A stretch of DNA of 64,000 bases from the NCBI RefSeq assembly GCF_000969985.1, contig NZ_CP009526.1, forward strand, positions 620,001 to 684,000. Direction: 5' to 3'. How positions within the stretch are numbered: position 1 is the first letter of the stretch; every line of letters starts with the position of its first letter. The notes beneath the pieces are model-generated. The model did not search any database. It was not told the origin of the DNA and saw only the letters and a program-made list of their open reading frames with translations. Origin of the DNA: Methanosarcina barkeri str. Wiesmoor (GTDB taxonomy: Archaea; Halobacteriota; Methanosarcinia; Methanosarcinales; Methanosarcinaceae). The position numbers and the translations under genes were made by a program. Of this stretch, positions 42,185 to 50,691 are shown piece after piece.

Positions 42185-44605
42185 ATGAGTAAATTAACTA
42201 CCGGGAGTTTTTCTATAGAAGATCTAGAATCCGTTCAGATCACTATTAACAATATTGTAGGGGCAGCAAAGGAGGCTGCTGAAGAAAAAGCAAAGGAGCT
42301 CGGTCCTATGGGCCCCACTCCATTCCCAGGTCTTGAAACCTACAGGGACGACTGGAACTTCAAACTACTTGACCGTTATGAGCCTGTTGTTACCCCCATG
42401 TGTGACCAGTGTTGCTACTGCACATACGGCCCCTGTGACCTCTCCAACAACAAGAGAGGTGCCTGTGGTATTGACATGCTTGGCCACAATGGAAGGGAAT
42501 TCTTCCTCCGTGTGATCACCGGTACTGCCTGTCACGCAGCCCACGGCCGCCACCTGCTTGACCACCTGATCGAGATCTTTGGAGAAGACTTGCCCCTCAA
42601 CCTTGGGCTATCCGATGTCCTGACCCCAAATATCACAATTACCACCGGGCAGAGACCAAAGACCCTCGGAGAAATCAAGCCTGCGATGGAATATGTTGAA
42701 GAGCAACTCACTCAGCTCCTTGCAACCGTCCATGCAGGGCAGGAATCTGCAGAGATTGACTATGACTCAAAGGCCCTTTTCAGCGGTAGCCTGGATCACG
42801 TAGGCATGGAAATTTCCGATATAGTACAGATCGCAGCCCTCGACTTCCCAAGAGCTGACCCTGAAGCCCCTCTCGTTGAAATGGGTATTGGGACCATTGA
42901 CAAGAACAAGCCGTTCCTCTGTGTGATTGGGCATAATGTAGGCGGTGTCACCTACATGATGGACTACATGGAAGAGCATGAACTAACCGACAAAGTAGAA
43001 CTCGGTGGGCTCTGCTGTACCGCAATCGACCTGACAAGGTACAAAGAGGCCGACAGGAGGCCCCCATACGCCAAAGTCGTTGGTTCCATGGCCAAGGAGC
43101 TCAAGATCATCCGCTCAGGAATGCCTGACGTCATTGTTGTTGACGAACAGTGTGTACGTGGAGACATCGTACCCGAAGCCCAGAAGCTCAAGATACCTGT
43201 GATCGCATCCAATGCCAAGATAATGTACGGCCTCCCTAACAGGACCGATGCCGATGTTAATGAGACCATTGAAGAACTCAAGTCAGGAGCAATTCCGGGT
43301 GCTGTGATCCTTGACTACGATAAGCTTGGAGAAATCTCCGTAAGGCTTGCTCAGGAAATGCACCCGATCCGCGAAGCTGCTGGGGTAAGGGAAATTCCAT
43401 CCGATGAACAGCTAAAGGCATGGGTTGACAAGTGTGCAGACTGTGGATCCTGCTACCTGGCATGTCCGATTGAGCTGGATATTCCGGAAGCCATGAAATT
43501 CGCCAAGCAGGGAGACTTCAGTTACCTTGAAAACCTCCACGATTCATGTATTGGCTGCCGCCGCTGCGAACAGGTTTGTAAGAAGGAGATCCCAATCCTT
43601 AGCGTCATAGAGAAAGCATCCCAGAAGATTATCGCTGAGGAGAAAGGCTGGATGAGAGCCGGCAGGGGTCAGGTATTTGATGCCGAAATCCGTTCAGAGG
43701 GTCTCAACCTTGTCATGGGTACAACCCCTGGTATCATCGCAATCATTGGATGTCCAAACTACTCTGATTGTGCCAAGGGTGTTTACTACATTGCAGAGGA
43801 GTTCCTGAAGAGGAACTACATCGTTGTTGGTACAGGTTGTGGGTCCATGGACATGGGCATGTACAAGGATGAAAATGGACAGACACTATATGAGAGGTTC
43901 CCAGGTGGATTCCAGTCAGGAGGACTTTCCAACATAGGATCCTGTGTCTCGAACGCCCATATCACTGGAGCTGCACAGAAAGTAGCCGGAATTTTCGGTG
44001 GCAGAACAATGGACGGAAACCTCGCGGAAATCGCTGACTATGTCCTGAACCGTGTTGGTGCCTGCGGACTTGCATGGGGTGCATTCTCGCAGAAGGCTTC
44101 TTCCATCGGTACAGGGTGTAACATCTACGGTATCCCAGCAGTTCTCGGTGCCCACAGCTCAAAGTACAGGAGAGCCCTGATCGCAAAGAACTATGATGAG
44201 TCCAAGTGGAAAGTCTATGATGCCAGAAACGGCGAAGAGATGGCAATCCCACCAGCTCCAGAATTCCTCCTGACCACAGCAGAGACCTGGCAGGAAGCGG
44301 TTCCAATGATGGCAAAAGCCTGCATCCGCCCGTCCGACAACAACCTGGGCAGGTCTATCAAACTGACTCACTGGATGGAACTCCACGAAAAGTACATTGG
44401 TGGACTGCCTGAAGACTGGTGGAAGTTCGTCAGGAACGAAGCTGACCTCCCACTTGCCAAGCGTGCAGATCTATTGAAGAAACTCGAAGAAGAACATGGC
44501 TGGGAAATCGACTGGAAGAGGAAGAAGATCATATCTGGTCCAAAGATCAAGTTCGATGTCTCGGCACAGCCTACTAACCTCAAGAGACTCTGCAAGGAGG
44601 CCTGA
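42185..44605 (+). CDS. cdhA: acetyl-CoA decarbonylase/synthase, CO dehydrogenase alpha subunit
   Basis: An 806-residue Ni-CO dehydrogenase. The N-terminal cluster cysteines are in [15 protein letters not shown] and ACGID; the two ferredoxin-type [4Fe-4S] motifs unique to archaeal CdhA are [14 protein letters not shown] and [14 protein letters not shown] (about residues 418-470). C-cluster ligands follow in the C-terminal half ([25 protein letters not shown]). It interconverts CO and CO2 within the acetyl-CoA cleaving complex. TAGGAGG precedes ATG 42185. First gene of cdhABC-cooC-cdhDE; cdhB starts two bases after its stop. Confidence 0.98.
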
Positions 44606-44607
44606 AA

Positions 44608-45120
44608 ATGGTTGACACAACAAAGAACACCAAACTCTTTACCAGCTACGGGGTAACCTCCTCCAAGGCAGTCAACCCTGACATGGTAGCCAAGATTATC
44701 TCCAAGGCAAAGAGACCTCTTCTTGTGGTCGGATCTGGAGTCCTTAAGCCCGAACTCCTGGACCGTGCAGTCAAGATTGCACAAAAAGCAAACATTCCAA
44801 TCGCTGCCACGGGTCACTCTCACATAGGGTTCTTGGACAAGGCCGTAGACGCCAAGTACATCAATCTGCACCAGCTTGGATTCTACTTAACCGATCCCAA
44901 CTGGCCCGGTCTTGACGGAAAGGGTAACTACGACACAATTATTTTACTGGAATTTAAGAAGTACTACATTAACCAGGTACTGTCCGGAACTAAGAACTTC
45001 TCCAAGGTAAAAGCAATTTCAATCGGCAGAGACTACATTCAGAACGCAACTATGTCCTTCGGGAACATCAGCCGGGAAGACCACTACGCTGCTCTGGATG
45101 AACTTATTAACGCATTATAA
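44608..45120 (+). CDS. cdhB: acetyl-CoA decarbonylase/synthase epsilon subunit
   Basis: A 170-residue subunit forming the alpha2-epsilon2 CO dehydrogenase component with CdhA. It has a Rossmann-like arrangement ([20 protein letters not shown]), followed by [13 protein letters not shown] and [17 protein letters not shown]. It has no metal ligands of its own; a role in electron transfer to FAD or ferredoxin has been proposed for the family. AGGAGG overlaps the cdhA stop. Confidence 0.96.
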
Positions 45121-45144
45121 CTTTGATTTAGGAGGCAAAATATA

Positions 45145-46563
45145 ATGGCAGAATTCCCATTTGAGATTTCCCCAATGTTTGAGGGAGAAAGAGTACGAAA
45201 GGATGGAATGTTTGTTGAACTCGGTGGTCCAAAGTCCATGGGTCTGGAACTTGTCCGTGCAAAAGATCTTGACGAGATCGAAGATGACAAGGTTACAATT
45301 GTTGGTCCTGATCTCAAAGAAATGGAAGAGGGTAAAACCTACCCCTGGGCAATGATTTTCAACATCGGTGGAGAACTTGTTGAAGCTGACCTTGAGTCTG
45401 TCGTTGAAAGGCGTGTCCACGACTTCGTTAACTACTGCCAGGGCATTATGCACCTGAACCAGAGGTACGACGTCTGGATGAGAGTTTCCAAGGATACAGC
45501 TGCAAAAATGGATTCCTTCGATTCCTTCGGCAAAGCTGTCATGATGCTTTTCAAGACCGAGCTTCCCTTTATTGAGAAGATGCAGGTTACCTTCTACACC
45601 GACGAGGCTGAAGTCGAAAAACAACTGGAAGAAGCAAAGGAAATCTTCAAGATAAGAGACGCCAGGACAAAGGACCTCCACGATGAGGATGTCGATGTCT
45701 TCTATGGATGTACCCTCTGTCAGGCTTTTGCTCCCACCAACGTCTGTGTTGTTTCTCCAGACAGAATCTCCCTCTGCGGTGCAATCAACTGGTTCGACGG
45801 CCGCGCAGCCGCAAAAGTAGACCCAGAAGGTCCGCAGTTCGCAATTGAAAAGGGTGAACTTATCAATGCCGATACCGGTGAATACTCCGGTGTCAATGAG
45901 ATTGCCAAGAAACTTTCCAGTGGTGAATATGACAAGATCAACCTCCACTCCTTCTTCGAATACCCGCACACTTCTTGTGGTTGCTTTGAAGTAGTCGGAT
46001 TCTATATCCCTGAGGTTGACGGTATTGGCTGGGTTAACAGAGAATACCAGGGAATGGCACCCAATGGTCTTGGTTTCTCAACAATGGCTGGTCAGACAGG
46101 TGGCGGAAAGCAGGTCGTAGGTTTCCTCGGTATTGGTGTCAACTACTTCTACTCTCCAAAGTTCATCCAGGCTGACGGTGGCTGGAACAGAGTTGTCTGG
46201 CTCCCAGCTATGCTCAAGGAGAAGATTGCCGAAACCATTCCTGAAGACATTAAAGACAAGATCGCAACTGAGAACGATGCAACTGATATTGAATCTCTGA
46301 AGGCTTTCCTGCAGGAGAAGAACCACCCGGTCGTTGCTAACTGGGCATCTGAGGAAGAAGAGGAAGAAGAAGAGGAAGAGGAAGAAGAGGAAGCAGCTGT
46401 TTCAGCAGCTCCAATGATGATGCCATCTGCTGGCTTCCAGATGCCTGCAATGGCTTCCATGCCAATGATGTCTGGTGGCACCGGTGGAATAAAACTGACC
46501 TTCAAGAACGCCAAGATCTCCATTGACAAAATGATCGTCAGCGAGAAGAAGGAAAATAAATAA
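45145..46563 (+). CDS. cdhC: acetyl-CoA synthase beta subunit
   Basis: A 472-residue subunit with the A-cluster that makes and breaks the acetyl C-C and C-S bonds. Ligand cysteines lie in YGCTLCQAFAP, PDRISLCGAINW and HTSCGCFE. Near residue 400 is an uninterrupted run of about fifteen Glu codons (GAA/GAG), then an Ala/Met/Pro-rich linker and a terminal IKLTFKNAKISIDKMIV segment. The acidic linker probably tethers the C-terminal segment within the complex. TAGGAGG precedes ATG 45145. Confidence 0.97.
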   Translation: MAEFPFEISPMFEGERVRKDGMFVELGGPKSMGLELVRAKDLDEIEDDKVTIVGPDLKEMEEGKTYPWAMIFNIGGELVEADLESVVERRVHDFVNYCQGIMHLNQRYDVWMRVSKDTAAKMDSFDSFGKAVMMLFKTELPFIEKMQVTFYTDEAEVEKQLEEAKEIFKIRDARTKDLHDEDVDVFYGCTLCQAFAPTNVCVVSPDRISLCGAINWFDGRAAAKVDPEGPQFAIEKGELINADTGEYSGVNEIAKKLSSGEYDKINLHSFFEYPHTSCGCFEVVGFYIPEVDGIGWVNREYQGMAPNGLGFSTMAGQTGGGKQVVGFLGIGVNYFYSPKFIQADGGWNRVVWLPAMLKEKIAETIPEDIKDKIATENDATDIESLKAFLQEKNHPVVANWASEEEEEEEEEEEEEEAAVSAAPMMMPSAGFQMPAMASMPMMSGGTGGIKLTFKNAKISIDKMIVSEKKENK

Positions 46564-46619
46564 TTGAGTGACGACAGGTAATCGCCTAAAACCGAAAAAC
46601 AATCTAAAAGGGGTATTCT

Positions 46620-47381
46620 GTGACTAGAGTAATTGCAATAACGGGAAAAGGTGGGACTGGTAAAACAGCGGTAGCGGCTCTTCTTATCCGCTACCTTTCC
46701 AAAAAAGGAAAATTTCTACTGGCAGTTGATGCCGACGCAGATGCCAACCTGCCTGAAACCCTTGGCTGTGAGTCAGTTAAAACAATCGGGGATGCAAAAG
46801 AATTCTTACAAGCCGAAATCACCAAACCAAGGCCGGACAACCCCGATATGAATAAGGAAGCTATACTTAAAAGCAAGATATATGAGATTATCGAAGAAAT
46901 GTCTGGTTATGATCTTCTGGTTATGGGTAGACCCGAAGGCTCAGGTTGTTACTGCTATGTAAACAACTTGCTCAGAGGCATCATGGATCAACTAATCACA
47001 AATTATGATATGGTTGTAATTGATGCGGAGGCAGGGCTTGAGCATTTCAGCAGGAAGATTATCCGGGATATTGATGATCTCATTGTTGTAACTGATGCTT
47101 CTCGAAGGGGATTCCGGACTGCAGAGAGAATTCGTGAACTTGTAAATGAACTGGACTCAAATGTTGAAAGGATTCATGTTATTGCAAACAAAGTTACAGA
47201 TGCTAACCGCAATAAGATCGAAGAACTTGCCGGAGACCTGAAATTCAGTCTTCTAGGAATGATTCCCCTTGACTCAAAAATAGAGGAACTCGATATACGA
47301 GGGGTTCCACTAACCGAACTTCCAGATGATTCGGCTGCGGTCATTGAAATCGAAAAAATTACAAAGAAGCTGGGGTTCTGA
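46620..47381 (+). CDS. cooC: CO dehydrogenase nickel-insertion ATPase (CooC-like)
   Basis: A 253-residue MinD/CooC-type P-loop ATPase starting with GTG. The deviant Walker A is GKGGTGKT (residues 9-16). The CxC metal-binding motif is in GSGCYCYVNN, and Walker B is VVIDAEAGLEHFS. It is expected to dimerise, bind nickel and load it into the CdhA C-cluster. It sits between cdhC and cdhD. The spacing to cdhD (580 bp) is much larger than between other genes of the operon, and holds a decayed cdhD fragment. Confidence 0.93.
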   Translation: MTRVIAITGKGGTGKTAVAALLIRYLSKKGKFLLAVDADADANLPETLGCESVKTIGDAKEFLQAEITKPRPDNPDMNKEAILKSKIYEIIEEMSGYDLLVMGRPEGSGCYCYVNNLLRGIMDQLITNYDMVVIDAEAGLEHFSRKIIRDIDDLIVVTDASRRGFRTAERIRELVNELDSNVERIHVIANKVTDANRNKIEELAGDLKFSLLGMIPLDSKIEELDIRGVPLTELPDDSAAVIEIEKITKKLGF

Positions 47382-47427
47382 TCTCCGAGATTTTCAGTAA
47401 TTAACTTACCAAAGGAATGTGAGCATT

Positions 47428-47646
47428 ATGACCACAAAAATAAAATTATTAGATCTAAAAATGACTGAAAGTCTGGATATAGAACCCTCGAAGGGATAAA
47501 TATAGAGGATAAATATAGAGGGAGAAATTGAGATCAATCTGGAATCAGGCGGAGTTAATCCGCAAATGGGAGCATTTCTCGGGCAGGAAAGCGCACAGAT
47601 AGCTAATCACCTTGCAAGTATTTCAAACCTGCTTGGGATAAGGTGA
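47428..47646 (+). pseudogene. decayed duplicate of the cdhD 5' end
   Basis: From ATG 47428 the sequence reads MTTKIKLLDLKMTESLDIEP, meets a stop, and after a small tandem duplication (GATAAATATAGAG twice, about 47496-47521) continues EGEIEINLESGGVNPQMGAF and LGQESAQIANHLASISNLLG to a stop at about 47644. It parallels CdhD residues 1-67 ([50 protein letters not shown]). So a second cdhD copy once stood, or a partial duplication arose, in front of the intact gene. Confidence 0.85.
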
Positions 47647-47961
47647 TCTTGGAAGTTCAGATATTTCAAAAGTTCCAAAAAAACGTTTATTCAGTGGTTA
47701 AAAATTAATTTTGTAGGATTTACGCACTTGAAATACAAAATCAAGCACAATTGACATTACTGTCTAATGTATGTTTTATAGGGTTGTTGATTTAATGCTG
47801 TTGAGTTTTCATTCCAACCGCGTAAGTCCGATTTTGGTCTAAATGAATAATGCAACACTCCTCTTAATTCAAAAAATGGTATAACAGTTAAAGTTCTGGG
47901 ATAAAAAGTCACTCATGAATGTTTAAAATAAAGGGAATATTACGGAAATGGTGAGGTTTAC
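47647..47961. other. intergenic region before cdhD
   Basis: AT-rich, no gene seen. GGTGAGG lies about nine bases before the cdhD ATG. No obvious terminator between cooC and cdhD, so read-through is likely, but the length would allow a separate promoter. Confidence 0.4.
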
Positions 47962-49278
47962 ATGGCAAAGAAAGTTAAGTTATCAGATATGACAGACATG
48001 TTCAAGGACATGGAGATATTGGCCCTTGAAGGTGTAACCATTGAAGGGGACATTGAGCTTGATCTTAGTGGACTCGGAGGTGGCTTTGACCCGATGCTTG
48101 CTGCTCTCCTTGGGCAGGAGAATGCAGTACTTGCACAGCACTTCGCAAGACTTGCTAGCATGTTTGGTGTCCCTGTAGGTTTTGGTGCCCCTGCCGCTGG
48201 TGCTCCTGCAATTTCTCCTGCTCTTGCAGCCCCGAAACTTAAGGATCTCATTCCTGCCAAATTCGATGTTGCAAACATTGCAGAATGGGCAAGCCAGATT
48301 CAGGAAGTCCCAATAGGCAACACCTCTGCCGACGGCGGCAGCCGTGGCAAGAGGGTCATGCTCGGTGGCGAGAAAGCTCTTCCTTTCTTCCCTGACGCCC
48401 CAATGCCCAACAGGAACCAGGTTACCATTGATGTATTCGATATGAGAATTGGTCTTGCAAAAGCTGTCAAGGTGAACTATGATGAAGTAATGGACAGCCC
48501 TGGAGAATGGGCAAAGAAGAATGTTGAGAAGTTCAACGCCGACATGATTACAATCCACCTGATCTCAACAGACCCACTGATTAAGGATACACCTGCAAAG
48601 GAAGCAGCCAAGACTGTAGAAGAAGTACTGCAGGCTGTTGATGTTCCAATCGCAATCGGCGGTTCAGGTAATCCACAGAAAGACCCCGAGGTTCTTGCAA
48701 AAGCTGCCGAAGTTGCCGAAGGCGAGCGCTGCCTCATTGCATCTGCCAGCCTGAACCTCGACTATGCCAAGATTGCGGAAGCTGCATTAAAGTATGACCA
48801 CGATGTTCTGTCCTGGACCCAGCTTGATATGAACTCACAGAAAGAACTTAACAGGAAGCTCATGAAGCAGTGCAACGTTCCAAGAGACAGGATCATCATG
48901 GACCCAACCACTGCCGCCCTCGGTTATGGTCTCGACTATGCCTACACCAACATGGAGCGTATCCGCCTTGCCGCCCTTATGGGTGACGATGAACTGACTT
49001 TCCCAATGTCTTCTGGTACCACTAACGCCTGGGGTGCCCGTGAGTCCTGGATGGTTAGCTCCCCACTGAAGGAAGATTCTGACTGGGGTCCCAGAGAGTA
49101 CAGAGGTCCTATCTGGGAAATCATTACAGGTCTGTCCCTTGCCATTGCAGGAAACGACCTCTTCATGATGATGCACCCAACATCAGTTGCTGTCCTGAAG
49201 CAGATTACCCAGACATTATTTGGTTCAATGGAGGCAGAGCCTGTTGACATTGCTAACTGGATCGGAGCGGAGGTGTAA
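47962..49278 (+). CDS. cdhD: acetyl-CoA decarbonylase/synthase corrinoid delta subunit
   Basis: A 438-residue small subunit of the corrinoid iron-sulfur protein. After an N-terminal region ending in an Ala/Pro/Gly-rich linker ([17 protein letters not shown]), the TIM-barrel includes [25 protein letters not shown], and [15 protein letters not shown]. With CdhE it carries the methyl group between tetrahydrosarcinapterin and the A-cluster. cdhE begins three bases after its stop. Confidence 0.97.
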
Positions 49279-49281
49279 AAC

Positions 49282-50691
49282 ATGAAGATAAACAGCCCAT
49301 TAGAAGCTTACAAATACCTCCCGCAGACCAACTGTGGAGAATGTGGTGAAGCAACCTGTATGGCATTTGCTTCCAAGCTGATAGACAGGTCCGGAAAGAC
49401 AGCAGACTGCTCACCTTTGATGAAAGAGAAGAAGTTTGCAAAGAAGCTTGCAGAACTTGACAGGCTCCTTGCACCTGAGATTCGTGAAATTGAAATCGGA
49501 GTGGGTGACAGAGCAGTCAAGATCGGTGGTGACGATGTTCTTTACCGTCACAAATTGACCTTCTTCAACAAAACGAAGATGTTCTTCGATGTTACTGACA
49601 CAATGGAAGAAGCTGCCCTTGTTGAAAGAGTAAAGAATATTGCTAACTTCCGTAAGTTCTATGTCGGTCGCAACCTGCTCCTTGACGGTGTGGCAATCAG
49701 GTCCGTATCAAACGATCCTGCAAAGTTCGCAGCCGCTGTTAAGAAAGTTGCAGAAGTTGGCATGCCAATGATCTTCTGTTCCTTTAACCCTGCAGTTCTT
49801 AAAGCAGGACTTGAAGCCGCAAAGGATGCAAACCCACTGCTCTACGCTGCAAACAAGGACAATTGGAAGGAAGTAGGCGAACTAGCCCTTGAATACAATG
49901 TGCCTGTCGTTGTTTCAGCTATAAATGACCTTGATGGCCTTAAGACTCTTGCAAAAACCTTTGCAGAGGCAGGTATTAAGGACATTGTCCTTGACCCCGG
50001 AACTTATCCAACTGGTAAAAGCATGAAGGAATCCTTTACCAACTTCCTGAAGATCAGGAGAGCAGGTATTATGGGAGATACCGAGATCGCATATCCGATC
50101 ATGGCTCTGCCGTTTACTGCCTGGATGGCTGGAATTTCCGACCCTGTCAGCGCCTCATACTGGGAAACTGCAATGGCTGCCGTATTTACTATCAGGTACG
50201 GTGACATTATGATTCTCCACAGTATGGAGCCATATGCCACGCTGCCTGAAGTCCACCTGGCCGAGACAATCTACACTGACCCAAGGACTCCTGTAGCTGT
50301 GGACTCAAAGATGTACAAGGTAGGAAACCCAACAGCGGACTCACCTGTGCTCTTCACCACAAACTTCGCTCTGACTTACTATACAGTAGAGAGCGACCTT
50401 TCCTCAAACGACATCGACTGCTATCTGCTTGCAGTTGACACCGATGGTATTGGTGTGGAAGCCTCTGTTGCCGGTGGGCAGCTGACTGCTGACAAAGTAA
50501 AGGATGCCTTTGATAAATCAGGCTTTGACCTTAAGAAGGATGTTACCCATAACAGTGTAATCATTCCTGGTCTGGCTGCACGTCTACAGGGCGACCTTGA
50601 GGACAAACTGGGCGCAAATATTCTTGTGGGCCCAATGGACTCCGGAAGGCTGCCTGGCTTTATGGAGAAGAACTGGCCTCCAAAGAAATAA
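49282..50691 (+). CDS. cdhE: acetyl-CoA decarbonylase/synthase corrinoid Fe-S gamma subunit
   Basis: A 469-residue large subunit of the corrinoid iron-sulfur protein. The N-terminal [4Fe-4S] domain has Cys18, Cys21, Cys26 and Cys43 (NCGECGEATC ... DCSPL). A TIM-barrel follows (FCSFNPAVLKAGLEAAKD, VVVSAINDLDGLK) and the C-terminal part is the cobalamin-binding domain (VEASVAGGQLTADKVKDAF, IIPGLAARLQGDL). It reduces and holds the corrinoid cofactor in methyl transfer. Last gene of the operon, followed by a strong hairpin. Confidence 0.97.
   Translation: MKINSPLEAYKYLPQTNCGECGEATCMAFASKLIDRSGKTADCSPLMKEKKFAKKLAELDRLLAPEIREIEIGVGDRAVKIGGDDVLYRHKLTFFNKTKMFFDVTDTMEEAALVERVKNIANFRKFYVGRNLLLDGVAIRSVSNDPAKFAAAVKKVAEVGMPMIFCSFNPAVLKAGLEAAKDANPLLYAANKDNWKEVGELALEYNVPVVVSAINDLDGLKTLAKTFAEAGIKDIVLDPGTYPTGKSMKESFTNFLKIRRAGIMGDTEIAYPIMALPFTAWMAGISDPVSASYWETAMAAVFTIRYGDIMILHSMEPYATLPEVHLAETIYTDPRTPVAVDSKMYKVGNPTADSPVLFTTNFALTYYTVESDLSSNDIDCYLLAVDTDGIGVEASVAGGQLTADKVKDAFDKSGFDLKKDVTHNSVIIPGLAARLQGDLEDKLGANILVGPMDSGRLPGFMEKNWPPKK

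Follow-up and report, generated by a model that had tools for sequence, protein, structure and literature searches.

An eroded copy of the CdhD N-terminal domain in a mosaic cdh operon of Methanosarcina barkeri Wiesmoor is probably the remnant of a small gene that recurs in related archaea

Between cooC and cdhD in a cdh operon of Methanosarcina barkeri str. Wiesmoor lies a broken copy of the first part of CdhD, the acetyl-CoA decarbonylase/synthase delta subunit (PF03599, NF003375), within the 64,000-nucleotide stretch of DNA that we analysed (the window). Since intact, free-standing versions of this domain are present in several related archaea, the most plausible reading of the fragment is a small gene that recurs among them and has died here. 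With a probability of roughly 0.6, we take it to be the remains of a stand-alone gene that sat between cooC and the cdhD leader and that would have encoded only the archaeal CdhD N-terminal domain, about 68 residues.

The fragment spans positions 47428..47646 (+), from an ATG at 47428 to a terminal TGA at 47644-47646, and its translation aligns with CdhD residues 1-68. Two in-frame stops, a TAA (47497-47499) and a TAG (47503-47505), lie at a frame break marked by a 13-bp tandem repeat (47495..47520, +; units 47495-47507 and 47508-47520), and only two start-led pieces of 26 aa each remain. The gap that contains the fragment scores 46.7 bits with an N-domain profile, whereas 300 dinucleotide shuffles of it reach 3.3 at most, which bears out the sequence-only reading that an eroded, stop-broken CdhD N-terminus is present inside the cdh operon. 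In a genus-wide protein search, CdhD residues 2-70 were matched by the fragment with 39% identity (E 8.1e-8 for one genome) across one TAG and one TAA, and the 45-residue stretch after the stops alone matches positions 25-70 of the NCBIfam CdhD model NF003375 (E 1.3e-5), with a score that, predictably for a partial sequence, falls far short of the whole-protein cut-off. Both the fragment and its living counterparts correspond to the first ~70 residues of CdhD and, unlike CdhD, are without the catalytic core. PF03599 covers only that core (residue 116 onward) and does not match the free copies tested, the fragment holds no CdhD core domain and the 45-residue stretch gives no Pfam match. Downstream of the fragment no CdhD sequence past codon ~68 is detectable (p 0.24 and above), nor does a remnant of a second cdhD start after it reach significance (p 0.57 against the second cdh operon of the same genome, 0.81 against ANME-2) or a duplicated leader ahead of it (p 0.15). 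In position (between cooC and cdhD, same strand), in homology and in ending where the N-domain does (about codon 68-72), the fragment resembles a stand-alone N-domain gene of a cdh operon. Since the archaeal domain is present without an open frame, it can only be a dead member of that class. A DNA search of 30 genomes of the genus recovered the fragment's own copy in this genome only; two further matches of 25 and 29-30 nt (L010, L011) were set aside as unrelated sequence that looks like chance.

Intact counterparts occupy the same slot elsewhere. Profile searches of 185 genomes of the order and 237 of the class, with copies then located by second searches of chosen genomes, revealed short intact ORFs of the CdhD N-domain directly upstream of cdhD; genomes with a second match under the thresholds would be missed, so the counts of stand-alone copies are lower bounds. 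Such cis copies were found in the cooC-cdhD slot of at least 12 genomes from ANME-3-like, ANME-2 and GoM-Arc1-type archaea and one Methanothrix relative, namely three of genus g14 in family f1 (G178, G182, G183), six of the 17 genomes of family f3 (G037, G038, G039, G041, G042, G049), two of f2 (G034, G035) and one of f7 (G236). The named records include HMMV2, CSMAG_2122 and CSMAG_2493 (Methanosarcinaceae, where the closely related L124, labelled ANME3, shows no cis copy), ANME-2 S7142MS1, CSMAG_508, CSMAG_2592 and UBA7939 (Methanosarcinales), GoM-Arc1 E37, ex4572_44 and Methanothrix CSMAG_2495. The order cdhC-cooC-small gene-cdhD is seen in nine of 20 operon stretches (L093-L101) and not in the other 11, one stretch of the 20 (L102) ending inside the domain. 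The small ORFs measure 68-69 aa in these nine stretches and 84-93 aa in f2, and nine ANME-type cis copies are 92-95% identical at the nucleotide level to the adjacent cdhD. When 93 distinct cooC-cdhD gaps were scored with the N-domain profile, 14 reached at least 16.7 bits and 79 at most 2.1 bits; identical gaps were merged, one genome may recur under several locus ids from the two collections, and cdhD was begun at an upstream ATG in a number of loci (128 of the 260 nt are concerned in the second operon of this genome), so that parts of some negative gaps lay outside the scan. Of 85 relatives, the contig scan retained 80. The stand-alone count excludes copies truncated at a contig or locus end (G107, G171, G055 and the C19 copy of G085), and from L096 (G037), which holds a run of N, only the clean small copy was used; a possible third tandem N-domain copy lies beside that run upstream of cdhD and may be an assembly effect. 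The gap at 16.7 bits belongs to Methanosaeta UBA204 and carries in-frame deletions relative to a related locus (L190). The small gene of UBA204 (L193 2746-2961) thus seems to be another copy in decay. No cis copy was found in other Methanosarcina, either in the genus search or among the 27 other loci of the genus listed, nor in the g5 loci examined. The sequence-only reading had held that finding the fragment conserved and translated in other species would make it a functional small gene: intact genes in the same slot do exist in other genera, but the copy in the window is broken.

The operon that houses the fragment (operon 1, 42185-50691) is a mosaic, as seen when its identity to a second cdh operon of the same genome (operon 2, L019) is followed in 100-nt steps. 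Its cdhA and cdhB (42185..45120, +) are mostly 63-87% identical to operon 2, with two short places at 94-99%, and cooC (46620..47381, +) is 65-92% identical, the gap between cooC and cdhD being poorly alignable. Between these, cdhC (45145..46563, +) matches operon 2 at 97-100% along most of the gene, with a tail at 89-92%; the intact cdhD (47962..49278, +; N-terminal domain, residues 1-71, at 47962..48174, +) and cdhE (49282..50691, +) are homogenised with operon 2 at 97-100% and 100%, respectively, similarity dropping after cdhE. Quick trees (11 and 23 rows) place the nearest relatives of operon 1 CdhA and CdhB in genus g5 (G109, BM5_bin.6): a CdhA segment of 213 residues is 95% identical to that of G109, and CdhB is 88% identical to G109 and 90% to BM5_bin.6, compared with 85-87% (CdhA) and 73-76% (CdhB) for the Methanosarcina copies listed (operon 2, G001 and G003). 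The operon 1 CooC branches outside 29 other rows of the genus (support 97/93 and 93/85), and that of operon 2 is nested in its own clade. It follows that operon 1 is foreign or very old, two of its tracts having been homogenised with operon 2. These comparisons suggest that operon 1 was probably taken over from a sister genus (g5), and cdhC and cdhD-cdhE would later have been overwritten from operon 2, with conversion seemingly beginning near the cdhD start.

The gap itself bears on how the fragment came to be there. Including the stop codon it measures 583 nt, compared with 230-340 nt in the 27 other loci of the genus in the same alignment. The sequence-only reading had attributed the large gap to the fragment; this accounts for much of it (219 nt), and a dispersed short repeat of ~118 bp (47714..47831) with inverted ends TAGGATTTACGC ... 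GCGTAAGTCC takes up a further part, the two together leaving ~246 nt, a normal gap. This repeat has many copies in the genome (~20 further matches) and sits inside the operon, downstream of the fragment and upstream of the cdhD leader. The leader (47890..47961, +) is of operon-1 type: compared with that of operon 2 it carries an insertion of 11 nt and several changed bases, and GAAATGGTGAGG is common to it and one of the two G109 operons. By contrast, the first ~200 coding nt of cdhD differ from operon 2 at one site. Only the last ~60 nt ahead of cdhD form a recognisable common leader, with the motif AGTCACTCAT (47907-47916 in operon 1). This motif is kept across the aligned loci of the genus and, with small changes, in g5; it may serve as a regulatory or leader element. 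Because the sequence immediately ahead of cdhD belongs to operon 1 itself, the original cdhD would have stood where the present one stands and the fragment would be a separate upstream copy, an argument resting on about 60 nt.

Trees of the N-domain comprise about 70 columns and are poorly resolved. Even so, the free copies need six changes on the tree, five of them forced by well-supported branches. A single clade of the copies that lie away from cdhD (trans copies) is disfavoured (p-AU 0.023), and a single clade of cis copies and fragment is rejected at p-AU 9e-14, a kind of rejection that conversion with the adjacent cdhD can cause. It thus appears from the trees that free copies arose, or were homogenised, several times. 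The branch of the fragment is long; one tree sets it close to the base of the Methanosarcina/g4/g5 CdhDs (87/84), and the other gives it no firm place. Joining it with the Methanosarcina copies (p-AU 0.22) or with the trans group (p-AU 0.19) is rejected in neither case, and its diagnostic residues are split, four being of Methanosarcina type and five of other type, with one near. Among the living free copies, pairwise omega is 0.05-0.33 for six f7 trans copies, 0.25 for another f7 pair, 0.24 for the f2 pair (GoM-Arc1 type), 0.09-0.23 for ANME-3-like and 0.21-1.16 for ANME-2 copies, with some of them under purifying selection. At 0.38-1.33 (four of six copies used), the Methanosarcina trans copies look weakly constrained.

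The trans copies number six among 30 Methanosarcina genomes, this one included, and at least eight genomes in family f7, which appears to be the Methanothrix family. The copy in M. barkeri Wiesmoor (G000:C2:3339288-3339560, corresponding to L018 4286-4561, -) is intact at 91 aa and neighbours genes for CbiQ, a CbiO-type ATPase, cobyrinate diamide synthase and two DsrE-like ORFs. It has no Pfam match at E 0.1, and six other free copies have insignificant matches only (E at least 0.18). Another trans copy lies at 480080-480355 in G001. The neighbours of the trans copies include, in L261, genes for CbiQ, a CbiO-type ATPase and cobyrinate diamide synthase; CbiM is found in L265, CobN in L258, L262 and L266, and in L254 and L257 there are Peripla_BP_2 proteins, a FecCD/BtuC-like permease and CbiK. 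In six genomes the nearest CobN, CbiQ or Peripla_BP_2 gene lies 0.5-6.6 kb from the trans copy, a closeness that holds for 1.2-7.0% of the chromosome, with Peripla_BP_2 positions counted in three of the six and two CobN fragments of G009 left out; with CobN and CbiQ alone, the nearest in G202 is 66 kb away (22%). Since the families were chosen after the neighbourhoods had been seen, Peripla_BP_2 is broad and several Methanosarcina loci represent one orthologous place, the association is suggestive only.

What kind of sequence the fragment derives from can be judged against this background. The main rival, which we regard as unlikely, is that it is the 5' stub of the original, divergent cdhD of operon 1, left as an operon-2-like cdhD-cdhE came in downstream. 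The homogenisation of cdhD-cdhE with operon 2 fits such a replacement, and the fragment is as old as operon 1 seems and begins 46 nt past cooC, near the spacing of many genera (9-88 nt in most of the non-Methanosarcina gaps listed); however, the gap before cdhD in the g5 relatives is 185-186 nt. A leader that arrived with the replacing copy is not what precedes cdhD: the operon-1 leader makes conversion appear to start at cdhD itself. A stub would also require a junction exactly at the domain end. Thus, while the sequence-only reading was right that a duplication and replacement history exists, in that cdhD-cdhE (but not cdhA, cdhB or cooC) was overwritten, a leftover of the replaced cdhD is less likely than it had worded because the leader before cdhD is of operon-1 type and CdhD sequence beyond codon ~68 is undetectable.

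The other possibility it had raised, a recent tandem duplication of the 5' end of the local cdhD in this lineage followed by quick decay, appears improbable. Such duplications are known to exist, as the close identity of the ANME cis copies to their adjacent cdhD attests, and the test of a Methanosarcina origin leaves room for one, but against a fresh duplicate stand a protein identity to the local cdhD of only 39%, a position on the trees that is not beside it, the non-Methanosarcina residue in five diagnostic columns and the want of a significant duplicated leader. Least probable by far is that the fragment still works as a small gene, read through or recoded. TAG can be read as pyrrolysine in Methanosarcina and the frame is intact from the stops to the domain end, but a TAA precedes the TAG, the start-led pieces are short, the core is broken by the 13-bp repeat and, of the 30 genomes of the genus searched at the DNA level, this one alone gave the fragment. 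The dead stand-alone gene is itself counted against by the empty slot in the other Methanosarcina and g5 operons examined, the non-significant duplicated leader, the unsettled trees and the split diagnostic residues, and is favoured by the unconverted operon-1 leader beside cdhD, which counts for a separate upstream copy. It would also offer a reason for the decay: operon 1 would have been acquired from the sister genus and its cdhC and cdhD-cdhE overwritten from operon 2, but a small gene that has no counterpart in operon 2 could not have been renewed by conversion.

What a free N-domain might do is a matter of conjecture. PDB matches to CdhD begin at residue 109 or later, and no solved structure that includes the N-domain came up in sequence searches, bar a weak acyl carrier protein match in a profile search of solved structures (E 1.4) that was set aside; a structure prediction from a 44-row alignment is of low confidence (pLDDT 62.4, pTM 0.31). 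The domain, absent from bacterial AcsD, might dock the gamma-delta corrinoid protein in ACDS, and a free copy might occupy or cap the docking site and so tune ACDS assembly or corrinoid loading; we put forward the living free copies only as putative modulators of either step. In archaea, ACDS includes the gamma-delta protein as a stable component, and the interaction of ACS with the corrinoid protein has, according to a cryo-EM paper, been visualised in no organism (PMC11474084). The study of ethanotroph ACDS isolated the alpha-epsilon-zeta part only, and white arrows in it stand for unannotated or unrelated genes (PMC11493965). A comparable history is that of mtrA-1/mtrA-2 in the mtr operon, a duplication with long-lasting gene conversion (PMC4632066); there, too, a domain was duplicated within a methanogenic operon and copies were homogenised, but both copies are live and differ in architecture, whereas the copy in the window is dead and divergent and the conversion here is between two operons. 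That a methanogenic corrinoid complex can be bound and tuned by a small protein has a precedent in MtrR of M. mazei, a 49-aa protein acting on the Mtr complex (PMC13370731), likened here by description only, since it concerns another complex and is described in the excerpt available without mention of a subunit domain copy. No title or abstract start in the open-access literature searched concerns stand-alone CdhD N-domain genes, and the available excerpts of PMC12918732 and PMC13079737 do not mention them, hinting that such genes may be absent from print.

Perhaps, and this is a doubtful proposal, free CdhD N-domains are recurrent small proteins across the class of Methanosarcina, ANME-2, ANME-3, GoM-Arc1 and Methanothrix that link the supply of cobalt or corrinoid to how the corrinoid iron-sulfur part of ACDS is assembled or loaded. 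The 5' end of cdhD would have given rise to them on several occasions, leaving them in the cdh operon or beside cobalt/corrinoid genes, and the fragment in the window would have died after operon import and partial overwriting. In the window, what looked like a pseudogene in a gap comes to mark a cdh operon that is mosaic and probably imported. The N-domain bears on the question of how the corrinoid protein is held within the 2.2-MDa archaeal ACDS complex, and its existence as a separate small gene in several lineages, in some under selection and in some near cobalt/corrinoid genes, would provide a natural reagent and a testable idea on the role of this domain.
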